Part shown: piece after piece, positions 18,101 through 51,232 of the stretch
Position numbering within the stretch: the stretch's first letter is position 1
How the letters are laid out: each line of letters begins with the position of its first letter
Virus record (IMG/VR): IMGVR_UViG_3300048006_000111
Span: 1-51,805 of that record
Length of the DNA: 51,805 bases
Strand: one strand, 5' to 3'
DNA from: a virus
The notes under the pieces: model-generated
Databases searched by the model: none
Told to the model about the DNA's origin: nothing
Seen by the model: only the letters and a program-made list of their open reading frames with translations
Made by a program: the position numbers and the translations under genes

Positions 18101-20107
18101 TTCTGGTATAGGTTGAAGATAGTTTACAGAAAGCGTATCACCAGGCCAATTTAATATATTACCATTAAATTGCAAGGTGTTGTAATCAGAAAACACGTTA
18201 GAGCCTGGTTGAGGATCACCATTGACGTCTAATAAACCGTCATAATTAGACAAAACAATATCAGTTTGTCTACCAAACTTATCTGCTAAAACTATACCAA
18301 CTTGATAATTTCTGTTTTGCTTTAATGAATGTTGTGGATATTCTATAAATTGCTGAGTAGATTTATCAGCTACAGACGTGTAATAATCTAAACCTAACGG
18401 TGCTGTGTAACTTTCTACGTAATTAGAATATAATATTCTATTACCACTAGATTCTTGTGCTAAAGCTCTAACAGGCACCTTGTCGAAAACCCTAGTGGTC
18501 TCAGACGCTGGCATTGTTTTGATAGGTTGCTTAGATTGATAATTGTATTGATATACATTAGTATAATTTAAATTACTTATAAACGCGGCGTCAACATCTA
18601 CTTTTTCTAATATCTGATAAGCCTGCTTGTCTGACTCCTTATATATTATCTCTATGGCTTTTATTTTGTAGTTGTTTATTATATCTATACAAGGAAGTTT
18701 AATGTTTAGTACAGCATTGTTAATACTGTTCTGCATAAACTCAACTACAGTAGTAATAAAAGCCTGAGTTTCATCATCATTAATAAACTTACCTTCATGT
18801 TCAGGTATAAAAACATCTTGACTAAAAGGAGCTACTACTGAGTATTCGTTGTCGTCAAACTTAAATCTATAGCTAAATCTAACAAACTTATCTTTTAATA
18901 ACTCGGGATCTCCATTCCAACCGTTATAACCTGCTTCTTTTATAACTCTTACAGACATTCCGTAAGAAGATGGACTTGTTAATGTTGTGACTGGTAAAGC
19001 GTTAGTGTTACTAAAGTTAACATAAAGATTATTTGCGGTAATAGCATCACTCGTCCAAAACCTAGCTCTTGTAGTTAATTCTCTAAAGTCATTACTGCTA
19101 GACGCACCTTGTCTCCAACCACCAGGCTTAACATTCATTCCGTTAGCATTTGTGTTTGCTTGAGGTGGATTGTCCCAGAGCGTTGTGCTTTTGAAAAGAT
19201 TAGAAGTAGCTCCACCAGCACCTATAATGCCATTCCATTGTGCAGTTGTTGGTATTGTAAATCCTATAGGTGCTAAGCCTCTAGAATCCATTACAGCATA
19301 TTTGTTGTATAAAACACCATAAGTAACTTCGTTTCCTATGTATTCATCATAATAGCAAAAAGCTCCATACTGACCGGTGTCTGCGGCTTGCCACGAAGCT
19401 AAAGTCTGTGCTTCAACTATTGGGTCTCCATTTCTATATCTAGTTACAGCTAAGTTAGAGTCGCTAACCTCGTATACACCTACTGGTACAGTGTCTGGAT
19501 CAGCGGCGTTTGTCATTGTAGAAGGGTAAGTATCTAGCTCTGGCGAATAATTGTTTATAAGAGGAGCTCTTAAATTTAAATACTGAGGTGGAAATATAGG
19601 TGCAAACTTTGCTACAGAAATTTGGTCTTCATTAAAGTAATAGGTAGAAGGTTGTTCTACATTTATTTTCCTAGGTTGATTTCTGTTATCTGTCCAAAAT
19701 AGTAAGTTTTCAACTAAATTAACACCTAACACTGGACTTTGTGTTGAAAAGTTCAACCAATATCCTTCAACTTTTACGTTTGTAGTATCAAGTATAGAAT
19801 TATACACTAGTATCTGGCATAAGGCTGTGCTTGGCGCTAGCGCAACGCCACTCCAGTTTGTTTTAAAATAATACACAAGAGAATTAGCGTCGTCAACGAA
19901 ATACCCTATCACCTCACCAGCTTCATCATATTCGTTAGATGTAACTTTATTGTTACCTAATATAGACTCCAAAGCTCCAACGTCACTTGCTTCTGATCTA
20001 GAGACAGCTATATTTAAAGCGTCTCTGTATTCGTTATTTGGTATAAGTCTCTCGTCTAAATCTTTATTCATTTTAGACTTGATGAAACTATTTTTAGCCT
20101 CTGCCAT
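15188..20107 (-). CDS. Large tail (muzzle-like) protein with inserted FISUMP domain (1639 aa)
   Basis: The N-terminus contains NSFIKSKMNKDLDERLIPNN and EYRDALNIAVSRSE, then GALESILGN, a signature I recall from tail proteins of marine Bacteroidota phages and crAss-like muzzle proteins. Residues about 264-391 look like a Fibrobacter succinogenes major paralogous (FISUMP) domain inserted into this backbone: GVLYNKYAV, LAPIGFTIPTTAQWNGI, NGMNVKPGGWRQG, ARFWTSD, YGMSVRVIKEAG. The flanks (up to PIFPPQYLNLRAP and from PELLKDKFVRFSYRFKFDD) read as one continuous domain without it. The rest is beta-rich and Asn/Thr/Tyr-rich. It probably forms the tail exit or a receptor-contacting part; the exact role is inferred. 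Confidence 0.72.
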   Translation of the reverse strand: MAEAKNSFIKSKMNKDLDERLIPNNEYRDALNIAVSRSEASDVGALESILGNNKVTSNEYDEAGEVIGYFVDDANSLVYYFKTNWSGVALAPSTALCQILVYNSILDTTNVKVEGYWLNFSTQSPVLGVNLVENLLFWTDNRNQPRKINVEQPSTYYFNEDQISVAKFAPIFPPQYLNLRAPLINNYSPELDTYPSTMTNAADPDTVPVGVYEVSDSNLAVTRYRNGDPIVEAQTLASWQAADTGQYGAFCYYDEYIGNEVTYGVLYNKYAVMDSRGLAPIGFTIPTTAQWNGIIGAGGATSNLFKSTTLWDNPPQANTNANGMNVKPGGWRQGASSSNDFRELTTRARFWTSDAITANNLYVNFSNTNALPVTTLTSPSSYGMSVRVIKEAGYNGWNGDPELLKDKFVRFSYRFKFDDNEYSVVAPFSQDVFIPEHEGKFINDDETQAFITTVVEFMQNSINNAVLNIKLPCIDIINNYKIKAIEIIYKESDKQAYQILEKVDVDAAFISNLNYTNVYQYNYQSKQPIKTMPASETTRVFDKVPVRALAQESSGNRILYSNYVESYTAPLGLDYYTSVADKSTQQFIEYPQHSLKQNRNYQVGIVLADKFGRQTDIVLSNYDGLLDVNGDPQPGSNVFSDYNTLQFNGNILNWPGDTLSVNYLQPIPENSLTSGYPGAYAQGEYYAVNIEDGTGTTGTGALYPYFESQSYQYFTANTTNLTTTFFAYAIKAVDFQNNANILNVYVNEGNGWILKKINDDYTASVSLAHVNVVFNNAITPGFNVKVELLFGPNRYYQYKLGSAGVRSNGTGLMFDNFTTNYGRCFSVGRKMSGQYIDYTDIVTVTPSSSTPVYNITIQTKEEIDVKYLFSNTPDLQQPEPDLTSNMTRATYDINVNGFYTYKFGVKQQQQDYYNVYLPGIINGYPIKSSTLEEGETGFITLISDNINKVPRNLQDVGPLQDQFTSDETMFPRVTNIVPVVVNNFSTQTKQFDPAFSPDSVDLVGTIKDVFPLLTGDAANPIPTAAGDVNPYSIYNFNTKPYVAKLSTRKPVGLDESLYTQPTGTDPYPANLGLAIYETSPFVSQLELFYETSSAQLISDLNSDIQNESGDINGSTFSSVSVSFSENDVIGSTITGNFFPTSGGQIVTSASCSIVNIFSYNPTTQAIDTNIDYISRFNLVAVGNGSFNITTAQGPNDPNGFFAGGSNSNLYDVTWRGKFEVNLKWSLGGVDTFETVTLQLQNDPPVIINTLPPFTVPNTGGLIVGMYPNAGARSLSPLGLNGSAITSGVGYPTNGDSATFSSNNGWDFVGARYTNNAGSVTYYGVYPGNSGTSGNISDFASIVYQANQTASGSSPIKYRQFVLSGNATTGNYQQVGAYSLYFSLTDDVGAVTYTYMNYTVGAANYTGQVVYASYTQGNPNPAYEGTQSDISLNTITSSNNLPIWQGQIQNWTANDVDIWIASSKQNPGFCDVRGCTENGGTYPDGTLGSGTNTVGGYFVSDVTSQGSNQNTGFNGSFQRVARLEGLSRTSTQITEGVSPGEKNPTPTTTTGTYNFQPSAAVNLKIEMTRNQNWPGVAPTGYAGAIVTYLPAGQTPTIQNPGTNLTEVIMADPPFYPRGGTGTTDPTVFPTAVPSGGFVGP

Positions 20108-36905: not shown

Positions 36906-37162
36906 AAAACAACAACCACATCTTGTGTCTTAATTACGTGGTATGATCTATCGTTAATTTCTATCTTGTGTCCAGCATGTCTATCGTAGTATATAACGTC
37001 ATCTTTTTGTAATCCAACAACTTCGTCTCCTATCTCAACTACGTTTGCTCTAATGTACCTTATATCGTCTCTATGTAAACCTGCTAAAAGTAAACCACCT
37101 TTTGTTTCAGTAGTTCCTTCTTTTATTTTTTCTATTATTAAATTTCTACCTACTGCCTTCAT
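36902..37162 (-). CDS. GroES-like co-chaperonin
   Basis: 86 residues (bacterial GroES about 95). The order is clear: AVGRNLIIEKIKE, then the mobile loop EGTTETKGGLLLAG, where GGLLLAG corresponds to the tripeptide loop that docks on GroEL, then VVEIGDEVVGLQKDDVIYYD and DRSYHVIKTQDVVVVL. It would cap the chaperonin encoded just upstream. The start overlaps the end of the GroEL gene by 17 bases, so translation is coupled. The usual bacterial order groS-groL is reversed here. Confidence 0.85.
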   Translation of the reverse strand: MKAVGRNLIIEKIKEGTTETKGGLLLAGLHRDDIRYIRANVVEIGDEVVGLQKDDVIYYDRHAGHKIEINDRSYHVIKTQDVVVVL

Positions 37163-38717
37163 CTATTCTCATGTTATTGATTACACAATCGGTAGATAGT
37201 ATTGTTGATGCTACGGAAGCTGCATTAATTAAGGCACTTTTAGTAACCAATAAAGGATCTATAATACCAAACTTAACCATATTAACCATTTTTCCTGTAA
37301 CTACATCTAGCCCTTTGCCTTTAGAAGATTCTAATTGCTTTTTTTGTTCAGATGTTAAAACCACACCAGCATTTGCTAGTAGTGTTGAGAAAGGCGCTGT
37401 TATTGCTTTAAGTAATATTTCTTCGCCAATACTTTTTGGTTTTAAAACATTAGAAGCGTTTAACAAAGCAATACCTCCTCCTGGTACAATACCTTCTTTA
37501 ATGGCAGCTTTTGTAGCACAAATAGCGTCTTCAACTCTATCGCTTTTTTCTTTTAATTCAATGTCAGAATTAGCGCCTATTTTAACTACAGCTACTTTCG
37601 CGCTTAGTCTAGCTAATCTTAATTCTAACCCAACTTGAATATGAGGTTTGTTTTTCTTTTTTAAATCTTCTTTTATAGTTGCTATAATGTCTTCAACTTC
37701 TTCAGAAACATCATTTACTTGTATTATCGTTTGATCTTGCGTAGATGTTGATTTTTCGCAAACACCTAAATAATCAACATGTATAGAACTTAAGTCATCT
37801 CCTAAATCTTCATTTATGACAGTAGCCCCTGTAAGTAAAGATAAATCTCCAAATATTTCTTTTCTTCTTAATCCAAAAGCTGGAGGCTCAATAACATTTA
37901 TTTTAATATTACCTTTCTTTTTGTTCATCACTAAAGCTGATAGCACTCCTGCTTCTATTTCGCCAATAATTAGTAATGATCTGTTGTTCTTTATAACATA
38001 TTCTAGTACTGGTTGTATTTGCCTTATTGAATCTACTTTTGAATCCATTAAAAGAACTAAAGCGTTTTCTAATTCAGAAACGTTTTTCTCTTTATTTGTT
38101 ATAAACTCAGCGTGTGAAAATCCTTTATTATATTCTACACCTTCTACTATTTCAACCTTAGTCACACCACCGTCTGACGGCTCCATTGTGACCACACCTG
38201 TTTCGCCTACAGCTCTAAAAGCATCAGCTATTAGTTTACCCAACTCTTTATCGTTGTTTGTTGATATAGTAGCTATATCGTCTATCATATCACCTTTAAC
38301 AGCTATAGAAATAGACTTTAAATAATCTACAACTTTCTCAACTCCAGATGATATACCATCTTTCATTTCTCTAAAGCTTTTATCAGAACCTAATTCTAAA
38401 TAAGCTGTTTTCATTATAGAGTGGGCTAAAACTGTAGCTGTAGTTGTTCCGTCTCCAGCTTCTTTAACCGTTTTACGCGCTGCTTCTTTTAAAAGCGTAG
38501 CACCCATGTTTTCAACAGGATCTCTTAATATAACTGAATTAGCAACAGTTACACCATCTTTAGTTATTATAGGGTTACCAGAGTTGTCCTCCATGATAAC
38601 ACATTTGCCGCTAGCCCCTAACGTGGAGCTAACAGCTTTTGTGAGTTGTTCTATTCCTTTAAATACCTTGTTTTTAGCTTGTTTTCCAAAACTAAGGTTT
38701 TTGACGATTCCGTCCAT
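37146..38717 (-). CDS. groL: GroEL chaperonin
   Basis: 523 residues. Conserved sites are visible: TLGASGKCVIMED (about 32-44), TKDGVTVANSV (52-62), the ATP loop GDGTTTATVLA (88-98), and IVPGGGIALLN in the C-terminal equatorial domain. The C-terminal GGM-rich tail of bacterial GroEL is missing; it ends NNMRIDEGSR. Together with the phage GroES it would fold capsid or tail proteins, as T4 gp31 does with the host chaperonin. A phage-encoded GroEL is less common than a phage GroES. Confidence 0.93.
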   Translation of the reverse strand: MDGIVKNLSFGKQAKNKVFKGIEQLTKAVSSTLGASGKCVIMEDNSGNPIITKDGVTVANSVILRDPVENMGATLLKEAARKTVKEAGDGTTTATVLAHSIMKTAYLELGSDKSFREMKDGISSGVEKVVDYLKSISIAVKGDMIDDIATISTNNDKELGKLIADAFRAVGETGVVTMEPSDGGVTKVEIVEGVEYNKGFSHAEFITNKEKNVSELENALVLLMDSKVDSIRQIQPVLEYVIKNNRSLLIIGEIEAGVLSALVMNKKKGNIKINVIEPPAFGLRRKEIFGDLSLLTGATVINEDLGDDLSSIHVDYLGVCEKSTSTQDQTIIQVNDVSEEVEDIIATIKEDLKKKNKPHIQVGLELRLARLSAKVAVVKIGANSDIELKEKSDRVEDAICATKAAIKEGIVPGGGIALLNASNVLKPKSIGEEILLKAITAPFSTLLANAGVVLTSEQKKQLESSKGKGLDVVTGKMVNMVKFGIIDPLLVTKSALINAASVASTILSTDCVINNMRIDEGSR

Positions 38718-46659: not shown

Positions 46660-46994
46660 TTAGTTGTTTTTTTCTTGTTCTTATATATTATATATACTTA
46701 CACAATTACTTCTTTTTTTACATAGGGTGTGACACTAGCCCCTTACTTATATCTCTTATAAGGCTTATGTCCTGTTTTTAAAAAATCGTTACGTATATAG
46801 GGGTATAGCACTGCCCCCTTTCTTTCACTAGCCAAACTCTCAGGAAAATGCAATTTATTTCGCCGGGCCCCCATTGTTTTCTAGCTTTCCAGCGTATATA
46901 TACGAACTTTTGCTGGCCCCCTCCCCCTATATTTAGACTTTTTTCTCTAATTTTTCACATGCTATTCTATATATTTAAAGAGATTTTACACAAG
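46660..46994. promoter_or_regulatory. Divergent control region with C-runs and inverted repeats
   Basis: No coding frame is evident. It separates the minus-strand late operon from the plus-strand small-gene array. C-runs of four to five bases lie at 46739-46742, 46814-46818, 46868-46872, 46917-46921 and 46923-46927 in otherwise very A+T-rich DNA. A perfect 12-bp palindrome, CGTATATATACG, is at 46893-46904, enclosed by CCAGC ... GCTGG. A second inverted repeat, CTTATA-TCTCT-TATAAG, is at 46746-46762. It likely holds the late promoter and perhaps operators or a replication origin. Confidence 0.6.
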
Positions 46995-47030
46995 AAATAC
47001 AGAATCAGTTTGATAATATATATGTAACTA
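46995..47030 (+). promoter_or_regulatory. Promoter-like repeat 1 (AAATAC-N10-TGATAATATA)
   Basis: AAATAC at 46995-47000, spacer of 10, TGATAATATA at 47011-47020, then TATGTAACTA. It is one of six copies on the plus strand with the same spacing. It lies 30 bases before the 23-codon gene, so it probably starts the array. Confidence 0.75.
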
Positions 47031-47059
47031 AAATACTAATAACAATTAAACTAAACAAT

Positions 47060-47131
47060 ATGCTATTACTTGTCATCGCACTACCAATCGCTCTCATCGC
47101 TACATTCCTTAGATCTGGAAACAATAGCTAA
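47060..47131 (+). CDS. 23-residue hydrophobic micropeptide
   Basis: MLLLVIALPIALIATFLR followed by SGNNS and TAA. A single hydrophobic helix (residues 2-17) with a positive residue and polar tail gives a minimal membrane peptide. It is directly after promoter repeat 1. Many phages use such peptides to inhibit host membrane proteins, but no target can be inferred. It may be spurious because it is so short; the promoter position supports it. Confidence 0.45.
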   Translation: MLLLVIALPIALIATFLRSGNNS

Positions 47132-47261
47132 TCGCTAAGTGACACATTGTCATGACATTACAAAGTATAATACTTATAATAGTATATGACACAATGACAC
47201 ACTGTGGTATGACATAACGACATATTAAACAACTAAACAAACATACACATTTATACATACA

Positions 47262-47297
47262 AAATACAAAACACAATTGATAATATAAATGTAACTA
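47262..47297 (+). promoter_or_regulatory. Promoter-like repeat 2 (AAATAC-N10-TGATAATATA)
   Basis: AAATAC at 47262-47267, spacer of 10, TGATAATATA at 47278-47287, then AATGTAACTA. It is upstream of the 75-residue gene (ATG at 47336) with the same architecture as the other copies. Confidence 0.75.
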
Positions 47298-47335
47298 AAT
47301 AACTAAATAATAATAATAACTTAAATATCTTAACT

Positions 47336-47563
47336 ATGCAAAATTTAAATTCAAAAAGATTTGTAATCAGAAAATCTTTAATCGGCAAAAACACTACAAT
47401 CAATGTAGTATTCACTAACGGCAAAACTGTCACTTACAATCACGATAAAGTGTATGAAGTAATGAAGTCTAAATTAGACACTATGAACTGCTGGCACAAG
47501 TATAAATCATATACTTCTTCAACTAGCGTTCCAGTAATCTGTCGTGAAGTAGTAGAAAAATAG
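47336..47563 (+). CDS. Hypothetical small protein (75 aa)
   Basis: MQNLNSKRFVIRKSLIGKNT, VVFTNGKTVTYNHDKVYEVM and NCWHKYKSYTSSTSVPVICR form two beta strands and a helix, basic overall. Preceded by promoter repeat 2 and the A-rich AATAATAATAAC leader. Its stop lies inside the hairpin before the first tRNA-like element. No family recognised. Confidence 0.65.
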   Translation: MQNLNSKRFVIRKSLIGKNTTINVVFTNGKTVTYNHDKVYEVMKSKLDTMNCWHKYKSYTSSTSVPVICREVVEK

Positions 47564-47660
47564 TATACTACTTCAAATACAAACAGACATAACGGTTTCA
47601 CTCTGCATTTTGACTACGTGAGCTCTACTTTGTGAGGTGGTTCGATTCCACTAATGTCTA
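47546..47660 (+). ncRNA. tRNA-like element 1 with upstream hairpin
   Basis: A 9-bp perfect hairpin, GAAGTAGTA/TACTACTTC (47546-47554 with 47566-47574), precedes an acceptor-like stem AGACAT (47585-47590) pairing with ATGTCT (47654-47659), followed by A. A T-arm-like hairpin lies inside it: GTGG-TTCGATT-CCAC (47637-47651). AACGGTTT resembles a D-loop. I could not find a regular anticodon stem, so it is not a normal tRNA. The sequence after the stem is ACTAA, as in the other elements. Confidence 0.6.
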
Positions 47661-47684
47661 CTAATAACTAATAATAATATAAAT

Positions 47685-47864
47685 ATGAACAGAAAATTTA
47701 TTCACTACGTACTAATCAAAATAACAGACATCGCTATTAAAGGATTTATAGCATCACTTGCAACCTTAGCCTTTGGCGGAATAGCTTACTTCATCTTCAT
47801 GATGATAACAGGTCAAGTAGATTACTCAGCGATGGATTCTATTCCATGTGGAATATGTAAATAA
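47685..47864 (+). CDS. Small membrane protein (59 aa)
   Basis: MNRKFIHYVLIKITDIAIKG, then FIASLATLAFGGIAYFIFMM (residues 21-40, a clear transmembrane helix), then GQVDYSAMDSIPCGICK with a C-x-x-C pair. A single-pass membrane protein of unknown role in the probable early block. It is too short for most gene finders. An AATATAAAT leader precedes it. Confidence 0.6.
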   Translation: MNRKFIHYVLIKITDIAIKGFIASLATLAFGGIAYFIFMMITGQVDYSAMDSIPCGICK

Positions 47865-47875
47865 GTTCACACAGT

Positions 47876-47906
47876 AAATACAATATCTATATGATAATAT
47901 AATAAA
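47876..47906 (+). promoter_or_regulatory. Promoter-like repeat 6 (AAATAC-N10-TGATAATATA)
   Basis: AAATAC at 47876-47881, spacer of 10, TGATAATATA at 47892-47901. It lies only 5 bases upstream of the ATG of the 46-residue gene, so a transcript starting downstream of the motif would have a very short or no leader. Confidence 0.65.
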
Positions 47907-48047
47907 ATGAAACGTATAAAATACATATCGCTCTTATCACTCTGGCTACAAAGTAACCATGAAATACTACCAGTTCTTCCACAAGAATTACTCGATGAAG
48001 TATATGTATACCAACGCTTCCAAACTAAACTAATTAATAATCTTTAA
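47907..48047 (+). CDS. Hypothetical small protein (46 aa)
   Basis: MKRIKYISLLSLWLQSNHEI and LPQELLDEVYVYQRFQTK. A helix pattern with basic N-terminus. The ATG is directly after promoter repeat 6. No function recognised. Confidence 0.5.
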   Translation: MKRIKYISLLSLWLQSNHEILPVLPQELLDEVYVYQRFQTKLINNL

Positions 48048-48059
48048 AACAATATAACT

Positions 48060-48179
48060 ATGTCTACATTTTCATACACATTACTAAAAATATCTTGGCG
48101 ACTATACGACAAGCATTACACTAAATTAACTGACGAGCAAAAGTCTAAAGTTATGGATATCTACTACGATTTCTACTAG
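48060..48179 (+). CDS. Hypothetical small protein (39 aa)
   Basis: MSTFSYTLLKISWRLYDKHY then TDEQKSKVMDIYYDFY. Aromatic-rich helices. The ATG follows 12 bases after the previous stop, so it probably belongs to the same transcript. Ends in TAG. No function recognised. Confidence 0.5.
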   Translation: MSTFSYTLLKISWRLYDKHYTKLTDEQKSKVMDIYYDFY

Positions 48180-48194
48180 TGTACATAAAGGTGA

Positions 48195-48278
48195 CTATCC
48201 GAACCTGCGGGCAACGAGCTTAACTGGATAGAACAAAAGACATAATGGTTAACGTGAGTTCGATTCTCACCATGTCTA
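48195..48278 (+). ncRNA. tRNA-like element 2 with upstream hairpin domain
   Basis: CTATCC (48195-48200) pairs with GGATAG (48226-48231), closing a domain that contains AACCTGCGGGCAACGAG. Next, AGACAT (48238-48243) pairs with ATGTCT (48272-48277), followed by A and CTAA, and encloses only nine bases (ATGGTTAAC region) plus a perfect T-arm, GTGAG-TTCGATT-CTCAC (48254-48270). It is an acceptor plus T-arm minihelix with no room for an anticodon arm. The acceptor stem matches element 1. Confidence 0.6.
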
Positions 48279-48307
48279 CTAATAATAACTTTTAAAATAA
48301 TAATACT

Positions 48308-48442
48308 ATGCAATTTATACTTACATGCCAAAACGGCAAGCAAATAGATATGTCAAGCGACGTACTAAAACAAATGAGCGGCGAGATAACTCGTGAAGAC
48401 GTTCAAGAAAGAATAACCTTCTATCAAAATACTAATAAATAA
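48308..48442 (+). CDS. Hypothetical small protein (44 aa)
   Basis: MQFILTCQNGKQIDMSSDVL followed by GEITREDVQERITFYQN. Beta strand then helix. Starts after AATAATACT leader and near tRNA-like element 2. No function recognised. Confidence 0.5.
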   Translation: MQFILTCQNGKQIDMSSDVLKQMSGEITREDVQERITFYQNTNK

Positions 48443-48443
48443 T

Positions 48444-48575
48444 ATGGATTTACTAGACTACATTGACTGGAATGGAATATGTGAAGATAATGATTTAAAA
48501 TATGGTGATCTATCACCTCATCAATATCAACAACTAGAAATAATAATAAAAGAATTTATAAAACAAAATAAATAA
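48444..48575 (+). CDS. Hypothetical small acidic protein (43 aa)
   Basis: MDLLDYIDWNGICEDNDLKY and HQYQQLEIIIKEFIKQNK. Acidic N-terminal half and helical C-terminal half. Its ATG lies one base after the previous stop, so it is an operon member. No function recognised. Confidence 0.5.
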   Translation: MDLLDYIDWNGICEDNDLKYGDLSPHQYQQLEIIIKEFIKQNK

Positions 48576-48580
48576 TAACT

Positions 48581-48841
48581 ATGGCTAAATACAGAAATGC
48601 AGAATATTTCCACAAAGAGTGGATTGCGTATAACGGCGAACATTGCTCAGCTTATACTTGTAACGACGTAGACTTACTAAGAGGCTACAACACAGTATCA
48701 TTTCCTGCAAAAACAGAAGCAGAAATGAAAGAAAAAATAGATCACTACATAGATAATAGATCTAATATACTAAAAGGTCTCGAGCTAGAGCGTAAAGCAG
48801 CGGCTGTATTCTATCAAACCTTAGACTATAAAGGCGACTAA
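48581..48841 (+). CDS. Hypothetical small protein (86 aa)
   Basis: MAKYRNAEYFHKEWIAYNGE, VDLLRGYNTVSFPAKTEAEM and ELERKAAAVFYQTLDYKGD form a beta-then-helix arrangement. Two cysteines (HCSAYTC). No family recognised. It starts five bases after the previous stop in the small-gene operon. Confidence 0.6.
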   Translation: MAKYRNAEYFHKEWIAYNGEHCSAYTCNDVDLLRGYNTVSFPAKTEAEMKEKIDHYIDNRSNILKGLELERKAAAVFYQTLDYKGD

Positions 48842-48842
48842 T

Positions 48843-49022
48843 ATGACTATGAGAGAACTAAGAGAAGTTTTTGGTCAAAAGGTGATCGACTTCACAATAA
48901 GTAAAGATCTATTATGTTATGATGAGATAATGGATAGAGATTACTTAGAGGAAAGAATAAGATTTTATGTAGATACACAACAAATACAAATTGAGTTGGA
49001 TAATACAAATGTAACAAATTAA
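48843..49022 (+). CDS. Hypothetical small protein (59 aa)
   Basis: MTMRELREVFGQKVIDFTIS, SKDLLCYDEIMDRDYLEERI and YVDTQQIQIELDNTNVTN. Its 3' end contains promoter repeat 4, so part of the coding sequence also serves as a promoter for the next gene. No function recognised. Confidence 0.5.
   Translation: MTMRELREVFGQKVIDFTISKDLLCYDEIMDRDYLEERIRFYVDTQQIQIELDNTNVTN
48982..49014 (+). promoter_or_regulatory. Promoter-like repeat 4 (AAATAC-N10-GGATAATACA)
   Basis: AAATAC at 48982-48987, spacer of 10, then GGATAATACA at 48998-49007 and AATGTAAC. Two differences from the consensus (T to G and T to C). It lies inside the end of the 59-residue gene and drives the next gene (ATG at 49033). Confidence 0.6.
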
Positions 49023-49032
49023 CAAATAAACT

Positions 49033-49233
49033 ATGCTAAAATTAAAACAAGTCAATTCGACTACTATTAAAATCGACGGCAAAACCTACAAAGGTTATAC
49101 TGTTGGCGATTTACCAAAAAGATTTGCTTTCATTTATAATGAAGAAAAAGATCAAGAAGGTATCACTGAGTTTTTCAACTTCAAAGGTCTTACTTATGTT
49201 GAATATAACCCTTCAATATGGTCTTATGTCTAA
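49033..49233 (+). CDS. Hypothetical small protein (66 aa)
   Basis: MLKLKQVNSTTIKIDGKTYK and GYTVGDLPKRFAFIYNEEKD plus EFFNFKGLTYVEYNPSIW. Beta-rich with basic start. It follows promoter repeat 4 and overlaps the next gene by eight bases (ATGTCTAA). No function recognised. Confidence 0.55.
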   Translation: MLKLKQVNSTTIKIDGKTYKGYTVGDLPKRFAFIYNEEKDQEGITEFFNFKGLTYVEYNPSIWSYV

Positions 49234-49480
49234 TCCAAAAAACATGAAAGAAGCATGCCTCTATGTAGAACAGGCAAGAAAAAATCGTGGTCGCGAGCAT
49301 AGGCGTGTCCACTCCCATGAAGTATGCGGCAGACTGACTGATAGCGAATGGCTGTCTGTAGTTACAAGGCAAAAGAAAACGTTTGCTAAAGGTAAGACGT
49401 TTGCCCATACTGCAAGGTGGAATGATCACCACGAAAAGTGGGATTTAAAAACAGTAAAAAATAAATACAATAAACTATGA
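49226..49480 (+). CDS. Hypothetical small protein (84 aa)
   Basis: The start at 49226 (MSNPKNMKEACLYVEQARKN) was chosen over a more upstream ATG because it overlaps the previous stop by eight bases. Basic and His/Trp-containing: RGREHRRVHSHEVCGRLTDS and HTARWNDHHEKWDLKTVKNK. It could bind nucleic acid. No family recognised. Confidence 0.55.
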   Translation: MSNPKNMKEACLYVEQARKNRGREHRRVHSHEVCGRLTDSEWLSVVTRQKKTFAKGKTFAHTARWNDHHEKWDLKTVKNKYNKL

Positions 49481-49596
49481 GTAAAATAAAAAACCCGTGG
49501 GATTTAGCCTACGAATTAAACAAAGATAATTATAGTAGAGCAGATATAGATGATATGTTGTTCTGTGAAGTAGAAGAATTAATAAATCAAGAATAA
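49477..49596 (+). CDS. Hypothetical small protein (39 aa)
   Basis: MSKIKNPWDLAYELNKDNYS and RADIDDMLFCEVEELINQE. It overlaps the previous gene (ATGA) and its TAA is directly followed by the ATG of the next. Acidic helix. No function recognised. Confidence 0.5.
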   Translation: MSKIKNPWDLAYELNKDNYSRADIDDMLFCEVEELINQE

Positions 49597-49842
49597 ATGA
49601 AAGATAATATTAGAGTAAACGGATGGGACTTCGAGTATGTAAGTCAAGATGATGGTAACGACCAGTTTTACCAATGTAGAGGTGAGGTAATGTATGATGA
49701 CGAGCATGACCAAATACCTGAACCAGCGTTGTGGAATGCAGCGTTGAAGTTAGAAGAACAGTTAACCGAAGAAGGTTATAGATGTGATGCAAATCATTCA
49801 GAAAAAGGTTGGGTTGAAGTAACAATATATAATAAGATATAA
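49597..49842 (+). CDS. Hypothetical small acidic protein (81 aa)
   Basis: MKDNIRVNGWDFEYVSQDDG, QFYQCRGEVMYDDEHDQIPE and LEEQLTEEGYRCDANHSEKG. Acidic beta/alpha protein with two cysteines. Tightly packed after the 39-residue gene. No function recognised. Confidence 0.55.
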   Translation: MKDNIRVNGWDFEYVSQDDGNDQFYQCRGEVMYDDEHDQIPEPALWNAALKLEEQLTEEGYRCDANHSEKGWVEVTIYNKI

Positions 49843-49843
49843 T

Positions 49844-50041
49844 ATGGAAAAAGTAAAAGACTATGTAGAAAGTGAATTAAAAATGTTAGATAGAGGTATT
49901 GTAGCCACACCTAATCAAGATTACCTTTTACAATTTACAGAAGCTAACAATGGAAGTAATGATTACTTACTAATGCAAATGGCAAAAAACTATGGCTATA
50001 AAATAGCTTTATTAAATATAAAAGATAGATTTTATGAGTAG
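49844..50041 (+). CDS. Hypothetical small helical protein (65 aa)
   Basis: MEKVKDYVESELKMLDRGIV, LQFTEANNGSNDYLLMQMAK and YGYKIALLNIKDRFYE. Helical, moderately charged. The start is one base after the stop of the preceding gene, and its end overlaps the next gene by eight bases. No function recognised. Confidence 0.5.
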   Translation: MEKVKDYVESELKMLDRGIVATPNQDYLLQFTEANNGSNDYLLMQMAKNYGYKIALLNIKDRFYE

Positions 50042-50249
50042 AATGAAAGAAATAGACGAAATAGCACAAGGTATTGCTGACGTCACTAAAGAATTAATGT
50101 ATGATAGTATACATTGGCAAATAGCAGATCAACACGTTGAAGGTGATTCTTACAACGACTTGCACGATTATGTTATGGCTAAGGCTATTGAGTATATGTA
50201 TTTATCTCAAGAGAGATTTCCACACAAACAAAATACGATTTCAAATTGA
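50034..50249 (+). CDS. Hypothetical small protein (71 aa)
   Basis: MSRMKEIDEIAQGIADVTKE, MYDSIHWQIADQHVEGDSYN and YVMAKAIEYMYLSQERFPHK. Helical with acidic patches. Its last codons contain the start of promoter repeat 3 (50231-50256). No function recognised. Confidence 0.5.
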   Translation: MSRMKEIDEIAQGIADVTKELMYDSIHWQIADQHVEGDSYNDLHDYVMAKAIEYMYLSQERFPHKQNTISN

Positions 50250-50266
50250 TAATATAAATGTAACTA
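50231..50266 (+). promoter_or_regulatory. Promoter-like repeat 3 (AAATAC-N10-TGATAATATA)
   Basis: AAATAC at 50231-50236, spacer of 10, TGATAATATA at 50247-50256, AATGTAACTA after it. It precedes the 62-residue gene (ATG at 50282) by 25 bases and matches repeat 2 almost exactly. Confidence 0.75.
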
Positions 50267-50281
50267 TTAAAATAATAAACT

Positions 50282-50470
50282 ATGTATTGTAAATGCGGCA
50301 CAGAAGTGCACCCTATCAGAATAAATTATGGCTATAAAACTTGTGTTCCTTGCAGCACTGTAGAAGATTACAGTTATGTTCCTATAATAAATCACAAGAC
50401 AGGTAATACAATACAAGTTGTTAGCCAAGAAGTAAGTGCATCAGTGCACAGAGCTTGGCGACGTAAGTAG
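50282..50470 (+). CDS. Small zinc-ribbon-like protein (62 aa)
   Basis: MYCKCGTEVHPIRINYGYKT and CVPCSTVEDYSYVP. C3-x-C5 and C21-x2-C24 give four cysteines in a C-x-C ... C-x-x-C arrangement, the pattern of small zinc ribbons. A basic tail (VHRAWRRK) follows. Proteins like this often bind RNA polymerase or nucleic acid, but no target can be named. The stop codon TAG forms the 5' base of the first stem in the structured region. Confidence 0.6.
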   Translation: MYCKCGTEVHPIRINYGYKTCVPCSTVEDYSYVPIINHKTGNTIQVVSQEVSASVHRAWRRK

Positions 50471-50667
50471 ACTGTCGCTGTGTGTACTCAGGGAGGAGAT
50501 GACACGGCAGGTCTAATAGCTACTGTGGAGGGATTAGTACGGCTACGGTATTTTAAGTAGTTAAGCTAACGAAGATCCTCTAAGGTAGTAAATAGCTAGA
50601 CTAGTAGCTTAATTAGGTATGATTAAAGGCGAACGAAGATTAATTAGAAGCATCATTGCATCACCTT

Positions 50668-50790
50668 CTATTCGGCTCGATGATTACACATAAGTGAATA
50701 GCTAGCGGGAACTAGGTCAGGTTAGAGACGCAAGACAGGCTTCGCGACTCGGGCTACCGACGGGTATGAGGTTCGAATCCTCACTAGTTA
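50668..50790 (+). ncRNA. tRNA-like element 3 with upstream hairpin domain
   Basis: Hairpin domain CTATTC/GAATAG (50668-50673 with 50696-50701), then AACTAG (50710-50715) pairing with CTAGTT (50784-50789), followed by A and CTAA. A D-arm-like hairpin GTC-AGGTTAGA-GAC is at 50716-50729, a short stem TCGG-GCTA-CCGA sits in the middle, and a perfect T-arm TGAGG-TTCGAAT-CCTCA is at 50767-50783. It has the most complete tRNA-like form of the four, but no regular 5-7-5 anticodon arm was found. Confidence 0.55.
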
Positions 50791-50794
50791 CTAA

Positions 50795-50944
50795 GCCCAG
50801 CGAATAAATAACAAACCTGCGTACTGGTTGAGTGTAACTAAATCAAGGTACCGGAGAGCGGTTAGGAAATGACTGGGTAGGACGTGAATGGTTAAACGTT
50901 ATACAATATGTATTGTAGTGCGGGTTCGATTCCCGCCACGTCCA
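50795..50944 (+). ncRNA. tRNA-like element 4 with upstream hairpin domain
   Basis: Hairpin domain closed by GCCCAG/CTGGGT (50795-50800 with 50873-50878) and containing AACC-TGCGTACT-GGTT. Then GGACGTG (50880-50886) pairs over seven bases with CACGTCC (50937-50943), followed by A and CTAA. Inside are AATGGTTAA (D-loop-like), a hairpin TACAATATGTATTGTA (50902-50917) and a perfect T-arm GCGGG-TTCGATT-CCCGC (50920-50936). The acceptor and T-arm are ideal, but no D-stem is available without breaking the acceptor. Confidence 0.6.
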
Positions 50945-50957
50945 CTAATTACAAATT

Positions 50958-50990
50958 AAATACGAATAAAAACTGATAATATAATAAAAC
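50958..50990 (+). promoter_or_regulatory. Promoter-like repeat 5 (AAATAC-N10-TGATAATATA)
   Basis: AAATAC at 50958-50963, spacer of 10, TGATAATATA at 50974-50983. It precedes the 79-residue gene (ATG at 50993) by nine bases and follows tRNA-like element 4. Confidence 0.7.
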
Positions 50991-50992
50991 AA

Positions 50993-51232
50993 ATGGCAGA
51001 ATTAAAAACAATTTACGACGAGCTTTTACCAAATGTAAAGCTAAAATTAAGAGCTAGCGCTAGAGAATACGCTACAGCTAAAAGATTAAAATATACATTA
51101 ATGTCTAAGTACCTATGGTCACACTTAACAATTGACGAGGTTAGAGATCTATTGACATATGGTGGAGTTAACAGCTGGGAGTTAGACTCTTTTAGTTTCA
51201 TGTATGGTGATAAAATTATAGATAAAAACTAA
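50993..51232 (+). CDS. Hypothetical small helical protein (79 aa)
   Basis: MAELKTIYDELLPNVKLKLR, SAREYATAKRLKYTLMSKYL and LTIDEVRDLLTYGGVNSWEL. Helical, basic in the middle. It is directly after promoter repeat 5 and overlaps the next gene (TAATG). No family recognised. Confidence 0.6.
   Translation: MAELKTIYDELLPNVKLKLRASAREYATAKRLKYTLMSKYLWSHLTIDEVRDLLTYGGVNSWELDSFSFMYGDKIIDKN

Follow-up and report, generated by a model that had tools for sequence, protein, structure and literature searches.

The window, by which we mean the whole stretch of 51,805 nucleotides analysed here, contains a divergent intergenic region (46660..46985) with a minus-strand late block on one side and a plus-strand early block on the other. 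Six copies of a promoter-like motif lie in the plus-strand block. Copy 1 (46986..47024) consists of a -35 box (46986-46992), the middle box AAATACAG (46995-47002) and the -10 element GATAAT (47012-47017), with a predicted +1 G at 47024, and precedes a 23-codon ORF at 47060. Copy 2 (47253..47291; -35 box 47253-47259, middle box from 47262, -10 element 47279-47284, predicted +1 47291) is followed by an ORF of 75 aa (47336-47563), and copy 3 (47867..47905; -35 box 47867-47873, middle box from 47876, -10 element 47893-47898, predicted +1 47905) by a 46-aa ORF at 47908. Copy 4 (48973..49011; -35 box 48973-48979, middle box from 48982, -10 element 48999-49004, predicted +1 49011) overlaps the 3' end of the ORF 48843-49022 and precedes the ORF 49033-49233 (66 aa). 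Copy 5 (50222..50260; -35 box 50222-50228, middle box AAATACGA from 50231, -10 element 50248-50253, predicted +1 50260) overlaps the 3' end of the ORF 50034-50249 and is followed by the ORF 50282-50470 (62 aa). Copy 6 (50949..50987) has the -35 box TTACAAA (50949-50955), the middle box AAATACGA from 50958, a -10 element at 50975-50980 and a predicted +1 at 50987, ahead of the ORF 50993-51232 (79 aa); a tRNA-like element is located directly 5' of this copy. In all copies, the box borders were set by position weight matrices (PWMs), and +1 by an ORF-start analysis of relatives.

A sequence-only reading of this DNA had described the motif as bipartite, AAATAC-N10-TGATAATATA, in six plus-strand copies. 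A pattern scan of the window confirmed the strand of all six and their positions, with exact matches at 46995, 47262, 47876, 50231 and 50958 and two mismatches at 48982. Both halves are present, but the motif is in fact three-part: an upstream box had been overlooked, with ACA found at -7 to -5 from the first A of AAATAC in 6/6 copies. The trailing AATGTAAC is exact in three copies and carries one change in a fourth, whereas 47876 and 50958 read ATAAAA. A gene 5 to 40 bases downstream was found for five of the six copies only, the distances from the motif end to the next ATG being 39, 48, 6, 25, 25, and 9. The motif exceeds chance level in the window (10 matches at up to three mismatches; shuffle mean 2.96, with 1 of 100 shuffles reaching 10). 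A seventh plus-strand match (48735) has three mismatches, and the three minus-strand matches (17270, 39124, and 40390, each with two to three mismatches) look like chance occurrences.

Motif family and predicted start site

A PWM scan of related phages yielded 140 sites in 15 stretches from 14 records; 139 of these are on the motif strand, and five block shuffles gave none. All 17 records found by an exact longer pattern carry the motif, 16 of them in more than one copy and nearly all on one strand. Many records of uncultured marine phages thus carry the motif, on a single strand. In one relative, G002, all six copies are found at one offset and genes for a sigma factor and an HTH protein are present. 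The window stops short of both genes, which its phage is predicted to carry by comparison with G002. Among cultured relatives, the PWM found no motif above 3 bits in the fetched parts of MW202828, elemoE, phi38:1, and phi18:3. In a sister TerL clade, neither sigma nor motif was found in the 22 longer records searched, out of 80 loci. Assignment to the Crassvirales was considered and rejected: tblastn searches with TerL and portal each match 87 phage records, with no similarity to crAss-phage hallmarks, and by our tallies the matches are all from Flavobacterium, Cellulophaga, Tenacibaculum, or Maribacter phages or MW202828. The motif very probably represents a dedicated promoter family of the early strand of marine Bacteroidetes phages.

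The full motif reads TTACAAA (-38 to -32), AATACGA (-28 to -22), GATAAT (-12 to -7), and a purine at +1. In a set of 257 sites, which was picked without use of downstream sequence, position 29 is a purine in every case, and ORFs start at offset 29 in 53 cases but never at 28 or 30. The larger set from sigma loci described below behaves alike (ORF starts at position 29 in 33 of 453, at 28 in one, at 30 in two), and GATAATA is near-invariant across its hundreds of sites. Because of the purine at position 29 and the spike of ORF starts there, the predicted +1 is the seventh base past GATAAT. Judged from sequence, the -10 element would then lie 6-7 bases before +1, as in sigma-type promoters, which argues against T7-like initiation. 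Transcript starts had been expected 5-15 bases downstream of the motif; the predicted +1 comes close to this range, being the fourth base after TGATAATATA. For 139 sites, the median distance from the predicted +1 to the ATG is 22, compared to 141 for random points, and the predicted +1 falls inside ORFs of at least 60 aa in 4% of the cases, compared to 69%. G084 and G082 have a degenerate middle box, with no known protein change alongside. A separate, weaker motif is found on the late strand; its two-part form also matches twice in phi18:3.

The sigma factor and the neighbouring HTH protein

A gene of the sigma70 family (phrog_351, ca. 250 aa) was found in 38 of the 44 motif-bearing records searched, and in none of four relatives without the motif (which had been sought in the fetched parts of those four). 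The best 80 of 93 sigma loci were analyzed as a set; these are mutually related and several are near-identical. They show 454 motif matches on the sigma strand and two on the opposite strand. The motif is present upstream of sigma in 60/60 loci having at least 5 kb of upstream sequence, and in 13 of the 80 loci, several of which are near-identical, it is placed 30-33 bases ahead of the sigma start. The sigma of G002 matches phrog_351 with an E-value of 1.5e-24; with Pfam, its region 4 is above the cut-off and region 2 just below. The NCBIfam sigma70 superfamily is matched by 28/28 sigma members, and a tabulated member reached the superfamily cut-off but no subfamily cut-off. The best PDB match is sigma28 (1rp3, E 1.3e-6). 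According to the alignment and the AF2 model (mean pLDDT 75.9, TM ca. 0.3 to sigma chains), region 4 is retained.

An HTH protein of ca. 209 aa is encoded near sigma in 77 of the 80 loci. A tblastn search of 50,697 phage records detected no relative of either protein, and the HTH model (pLDDT 80) had no structural match at E 0.001. The three loci without the HTH gene, which is also absent from their records as searched, have the -35 box CGAAA instead of ACAAA, with CGA in 13/13 sites having a middle box. In two further loci with an altered recognition helix, 4/4 GATAATATA copies that precede an ORF have ACGGA. The HTH columns private to these two loci are 135, 184, and 188, two of them within the recognition helix; their sigma has one private column, which is outside region 4. 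The natural pairs are the CSTRT-type helix with ACAAA, CSERT-I with ACGGA, and no HTH protein with CGAAA. Since the -35 box changes together with the HTH protein while sigma barely differs, the HTH protein probably reads the -35 box and sigma the -10 element, although in the tree the -35 changes trace to no more than some two or three evolutionary events. ACGGA is also found at one distinct site in L332-L334, whose HTH protein is normal, and the GCAAA boxes of three loci are accompanied by no matching change in the HTH helix. Dropping the requirement for a middle box leaves five of the 80 loci with -35 boxes that are mostly unclassified and nine with no site; L327 and L329 then have three and two unclassified sites. 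Subtypes of sigma region 4 showed no clear link to motif columns, except that the loci with -35 CGA stood apart.

Proposed reading of the promoters

We consider it likely that the six copies are early/middle-strand promoters, read by a host core RNA polymerase which the phage sigma and the HTH protein have reprogrammed; binding by these two proteins, use of the host core, and early timing are what we infer from sequence. Sigma would open the DNA at GATAAT (-12 to -7), the HTH protein, encoded nearby, would bind the -35 box TTACAAA, and transcription would begin at the purine seven bases past GATAAT, often the A of the start codon. As the sigma and HTH genes sit behind the same promoter class, they may form a self-feeding circuit. 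The dedicated promoter class proposed earlier is strongly supported for the early strand by the computed motif family, strand bias, co-occurrence with sigma, and +1 position. The phage-modified RNA polymerase then suggested is strongly supported as well, if understood as a phage sigma and a partner protein acting on the host core, to which the co-occurrence, the adjacency of the HTH gene, and the computed covariation of -35 box and HTH protein point.

More tentatively, and with rather low probability, the promoter may have three elements read by a divided machine, with GATAAT contacted by region 2 of sigma, the -35 box by the separate HTH protein, and the mid-spacer box (-28 to -22) by a third party, which may be a region 4 of sigma shifted downstream, a second HTH unit, or another protein. 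The sigma/HTH pair might then be delivered with the DNA, since the search upstream of the early block turned up no host-type promoter; in that case the early genes would depend on the pair from the first minute.

It is unlikely that the entire promoter is read by the phage sigma unaided, with region 2 on GATAAT, region 4 on TTACAAA, and the HTH protein acting elsewhere (in replication or late control). The retained region 4 and a -35 to -10 spacing close to that of sigma28 would fit, but the -35 box shifts in lineages whose HTH protein is missing or changed, and sigma region 4 has no private residue there. Many lytic phages use the host sigma early and a phage sigma for late genes, and the motif could similarly mark immediate-early promoters read by the host sigma, with the phage sigma then reading the late strand. 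Early genes need a reader already present at infection, and given the weaker late-strand motif, the phage sigma could act on late genes, either instead or additionally. Phages 7-11 and phiEco32 likewise employ the host sigma early and their own sigma later (PMC8948821). We nevertheless judge this quite improbable. The near-invariant GATAATA is unlike the flavobacterial sigmaA -7 box TAnnTTTG (PMC9723704), motif and sigma co-occur with neither found in the sister clade, and the sigma gene itself is located behind the motif. The earlier suggestion of a host sigma with an unusual -10 found no support either: TTTG-N15..23-TAnnTTTG was found in none of 13 stretches, which cover the 329-600 bases preceding the first copy, no full-consensus TTTG-N-TAnnTTTG promoter is present in 46660..46985, and host-type promoters on the early strand of the sigma loci are not in excess (12, compared to 12-31 in five shuffles). 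A candidate at 46909, which misses the consensus by a single base, was dismissed, near-matches occurring in three of 13 stretches compared to 2.2 in shuffles.

That a phage RNA polymerase, T7-like or a giant virion enzyme, reads the motif, as had also been suggested, is unsupported and highly improbable. TAATACGA, which equals positions -17 to -10 of the T7 promoter, is part of a TAATACGA-N9-G arrangement that fits this promoter in letters and spacing, but the T7 geometry predicts +1 at position 17, whereas starts cluster at 29 and fit sigma-type initiation; on the strength of this position, the T7-like reading of TAATACGA was rejected. PF00940 was matched in 0 of 17 records, though the control likewise matched nowhere. 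The late block encodes a 3021-aa protein, but this has no DxDxD or T7-type string (regex) and no PDB relative at E <0.7, though a remote relation may exist; DxDxD-like strings occur only in smaller proteins of 549, 254, and 408 aa, where their context is acidic or unremarkable. Least probable of all is that the motif acts in RNA, as a leader or as a signal for processing or translation, or that it is a hairpin promoter like those of N4. The near-fixed distance to many start codons would suit the former, but with many ORFs starting at position 29 the boxes would be untranscribed given such a +1. No conserved upstream hairpin of the N4 virion polymerase type was found, pairing being not in excess (3.22 bp, compared to 3.09 bp in spacer shuffles).

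Comparison with known systems and significance

Promoters of sigma28/FliA read TAAA ... GCCGATAA; the present motif shares the GATAA -10 but has the extra AATACGA box. At T4 middle promoters (MotA/AsiA), MotA works with the host sigma70 and takes over the upstream element. The reading we prefer, sigma and HTH protein on the host core, likewise would place a phage DNA-binding protein on the upstream element and a sigma on the -10, but here the sigma is the phage's own. As in the T4 late system with its gp55/gp33 split sigma (PMC2988020), specificity would be divided between two phage proteins on the host core. In T4, gp33 reads no DNA and late promoters have no -35 element, whereas the present sigma keeps region 4 and the recognition helix of its partner covaries with the -35 box. 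Phages 7-11 (SaPh711_gp47; bipartite consensus GTAAtg-(16)-aCTA) and phiEco32 (phi32_gp36; tAATGTAtA) resemble our case in a phage sigma with host core, several dedicated promoters, and proposed positive feedback (PMC8948821). They differ in that their phage sigmas serve middle/late genes and the host sigma70 early ones, in their boxes, and in their enterobacterial hosts, and no adjoining HTH protein tied to the -35 box was seen in the part of the source consulted.

Phage sigma factors are already known; we found no description of the present motif in the literature searched. Its analysis points to two candidate proteins, sigma and HTH, and the naturally occurring combinations of helix and -35 box allow a direct test of the code of a divided sigma system. 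A single motif, with its start located to the base by sequence alone, would map the early promoters of a large group of uncultured marine phages.

Motif and gene layout of the window

The six copies of AAATAC-N10-TGATAATATA reported by the sequence-only reading are all present on the plus strand of the window. Those at 46995, 47262, 47876, 50231 and 50958 are exact, whereas the one at 48982 has two mismatches. When the first A of AAATAC is numbered 0, conservation covers TTACAAA at positions -9 to -3 (-35 box), AATACGA at 1 to 7 (middle box), GATAATA at 17 to 23 (each position 98-100% conserved over 453 sites; it includes the -10 box GATAAT), and a purine at 29. No description of this motif was found in open-licence PMC papers.

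An exact longer pattern retrieved 20 stretches in viral contigs. The shorter motif (up to two mismatches) occurs in all 17 underlying records, in more than one copy in 16, one strand holding up to 13 copies and its opposite no more than one; a reversed control pattern gave 0-2 per strand. The proposed matrix scan of relatives, based on 15 stretches from 14 records and excluding the uncultured viral record G002 as a near copy of the window, gave a strand-specific pattern: 139 of 140 sites lie on the motif strand (the exception is in record G005), and five block shuffles gave 0. Only 4% of the 139 sites fall within ORFs of at least 60 aa (random points: 69%), and the median distance from position 29 to the next ATG is 22 bases (random points: 141).

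The window is the entire record, which is 51,805 bases long and classed as viral. Its minus strand encodes the terminase, the portal, other virion proteins and a GroEL-like protein, while small ORFs occupy the plus strand beyond 46,995. The GroEL-like chaperonin lies in the late block (37146-38717, minus strand; Cpn60, E 3.7e-55), and GroES/GroEL are likewise present in related phages. Terminase and portal are related to those of Flavobacterium elemo phages, Cellulophaga phages phi38:1 (Pervagoviridae) and phi18:3 (Pachyviridae), Tenacibaculum and Maribacter phages, and the unassigned MW202828 (63.8% for the terminase). By record tallies, crAss phages are absent from the 87 records matching the window terminase or portal. 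G002 (66,464 bases) carries all six copies, each shifted by 5,815 bases, and runs on beyond the window's end.

A GC-rich, terminator-like hairpin (GGGGTATAGCACTGCCCC) is found at 46800-46817, inside the divergent intergenic region. Four tRNA-like plus-strand elements (47590-47660, 48200-48282, 50600-50790, 50880-50947) have GGTTCRA-type T-arm sequences as judged by eye. ARAGORN with default settings detected no tRNA in them, and the single Rfam match was to the tmRNA model (50880-50947, E 4.4e-9, under the gathering score). They may be tRNAs that have degenerated or that contain introns.

On the late strand, a different and weaker motif (GTAAAA/GGAAAA-like, about 12 bases, then AAGTAATWATA) lies upstream of late genes in the window (32819 and 15168, minus strand) and at terminase (TerL) loci L009-L088. 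A GTAAAA-like sequence followed by AAGTAAT had 36 matches in 80 terminase loci as compared to 8.3 in shuffles and 0 on the opposite strand; phi18:3 too has 2 matches to the two-part form. The phage sigma factor described below might also act at this motif.

A probable transcription start at position 29

To avoid circularity, start-site analysis used patterns stopping short of position 29. Loci were found by a pattern stopping at GATAATATA (115 loci among the matches listed, L157-L271), and sites were re-extracted by a pattern ending at GATAATA, with identical 82-base windows counted once. At least 257 distinct sites resulted, distributed over 109 of the 115 listed loci. Among these matches listed, position 29 is A or G in 257/257 sites (purine share 20% at position 28 and 44% at position 30), and 53 ORFs of at least 40 aa begin exactly there (0 at offsets 28 and 30, 5 at 27, 7 at 31). 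In the sigma-locus set, the matrix of which took in position 29, ORFs start at offset 29 in 33 of 453 sites (1 at 28, 2 at 30, 5 at 27, 13 at 31). A purine at +1 with frequent leaderless mRNAs would give this pattern. The putative +1 is seven bases past the last T of GATAAT, which is the spacing of sigma70-type initiation.

For F. psychrophilum, a median 5' UTR of 24 bases, 5.5% leaderless mRNAs and a sigmaA box TAnnTTTG have been reported (PMC9723704). The host promoter TTTG-N-TAnnTTTG was found ahead of the first copy within the fetched sequence in 0 of 13 stretches. In the window lineage, ATGTAAC is retained right behind the -10 box (copies 1, 2, 4 and 5; positions 26-33); if transcription begins at its G, the transcript would not contain the whole of the apparent ATG-TAA start-stop.

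Association with a phage sigma factor

Downstream of the motif block, G002 encodes a 253-aa sigma70-family protein, and a seventh motif copy heads the gene run with ligase, a helix-turn-helix protein (HTH) and sigma. Against the PDB, sigma28 is the best match of this sigma (E 1.3e-6), followed by primary sigmas. Neither sigma nor HTH has a relative among 50,697 phage records (tblastn). The family model matches sigma in 38 of the 44 motif-bearing records searched, the exceptions being the window plus five records (40-57 kb) that may be fragments; it matches 0 of 4 relatives whose fetched parts showed no motif.

Of 93 relatives obtained by a search starting from sigma, the best 80 were analysed. 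At least 5 kb upstream was available at 60 of these best 80 loci; the motif is there in 60/60, with three or more copies in 58. At the 20 truncated loci, it is present upstream in 11 and absent in 9. Sites at the best 80 loci total 454 on the sigma strand and 2 on the opposite strand, and one shuffle per locus gave 0. At 13 of these 80 loci (several being near-identical), the motif lies 30-33 bases ahead of the sigma start codon; nine of the 13 placements were viewed in sequence. The 129,537-base record G046, twice the usual length, has two sigma genes 62 kb apart (L302, L317) and would be either a chimera or a record combining two phage genomes.

In the sister terminase clade of MW202828 (80 loci), neither sigma nor motif was found in the 22 longer records searched, 6 of which have at least 54 kb. 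Of the window's own terminase clade, 11 records were searched, mostly fragments around late genes: sigma was found in 1, and 4 showed motif matches, a weak single match in two cases.

Covariation of the -35 box with the HTH protein

HTH has about 209 aa with the helix-turn-helix at its C-terminus; HTH_11 is matched by 15/15 members at E up to 1 (best 9.3e-7; G002 just 0.02). Its gene is near sigma, mostly immediately upstream, at 77 of the best 80 of 93 loci. The three HTH-less loci (L312, L327, L329) are those with CGA instead of ACA in the -35 box. Where a recognisable middle box was required, CGA occurs in 13/13 sites at these loci versus 0/365 elsewhere (356 ACA/GCA, 9 other). Without this requirement, 61 of the 80 loci have mainly ACA/GCA, the three HTH-less loci mainly CGAAA, 2 mainly ACGGA and 5 mainly unclassified boxes, and 9 have no site. 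HTH was not found in the records of L312, L327 and L329 (68.9, 62.5 and 28.9 kb; the 28.9-kb record is surely partial), and it was found in 9/9 comparator records.

L316 and L314 have the recognition helix CSERT-[VI]I, while 75 of the 77 HTH proteins have a small residue plus Y/H/Q/N there. In the fetched parts of their records, 11 GATAA[TA]A strings precede an early-strand ORF; all four reading GATAATATA have ACGGA at -7 to -3, and the seven without it are taken for chance occurrences. In addition, these records contain a single ACAAA match, in G083 and on the opposite strand. Three HTH alignment columns are private to L316/L314 (135, 184, 188), with 184 and 188 in the recognition helix, separated by one turn, as compared to one sigma column (46), outside region 4. 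No sigma alignment column is private to L312/L327/L329. One ACGGA site is shared by three near-identical loci with normal HTH. On the sigma tree, the HTH-less rows require two changes, one still being conceivable. From the HTH, sigma and tree patterns, the covariation would thus represent some two to three events, and every one of them points to HTH, not sigma, as the putative -35 reader.

In L301, L308 and L336, GCAAA replaces ACAAA with no matching change in the recognition helix. The middle box is constant in most lineages and degenerate in records G084 and G082, and no protein change could be tied to this degeneracy; in G084, all seven GATAATA copies with a -35 box retain ACA, six reading TTACAAACAAA. 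In phage elemoE (NC_055854), 19319-19618 weakly matches the middle of HTH (E 1.1e-4) within a 302-aa ORF, and sigma was not found there.

Phage sigma factors with their own promoters exist: for phage 7-11, PMC8948821 gives GTAAtg-(16)-aCTA and a proposed positive feedback. T4 gp55/gp33 has been called a split sigma, but gp33 does not read DNA (PMC2988020). Apparently new are the lineage, the motif and the presence of a neighbouring protein covarying with the -35 box.
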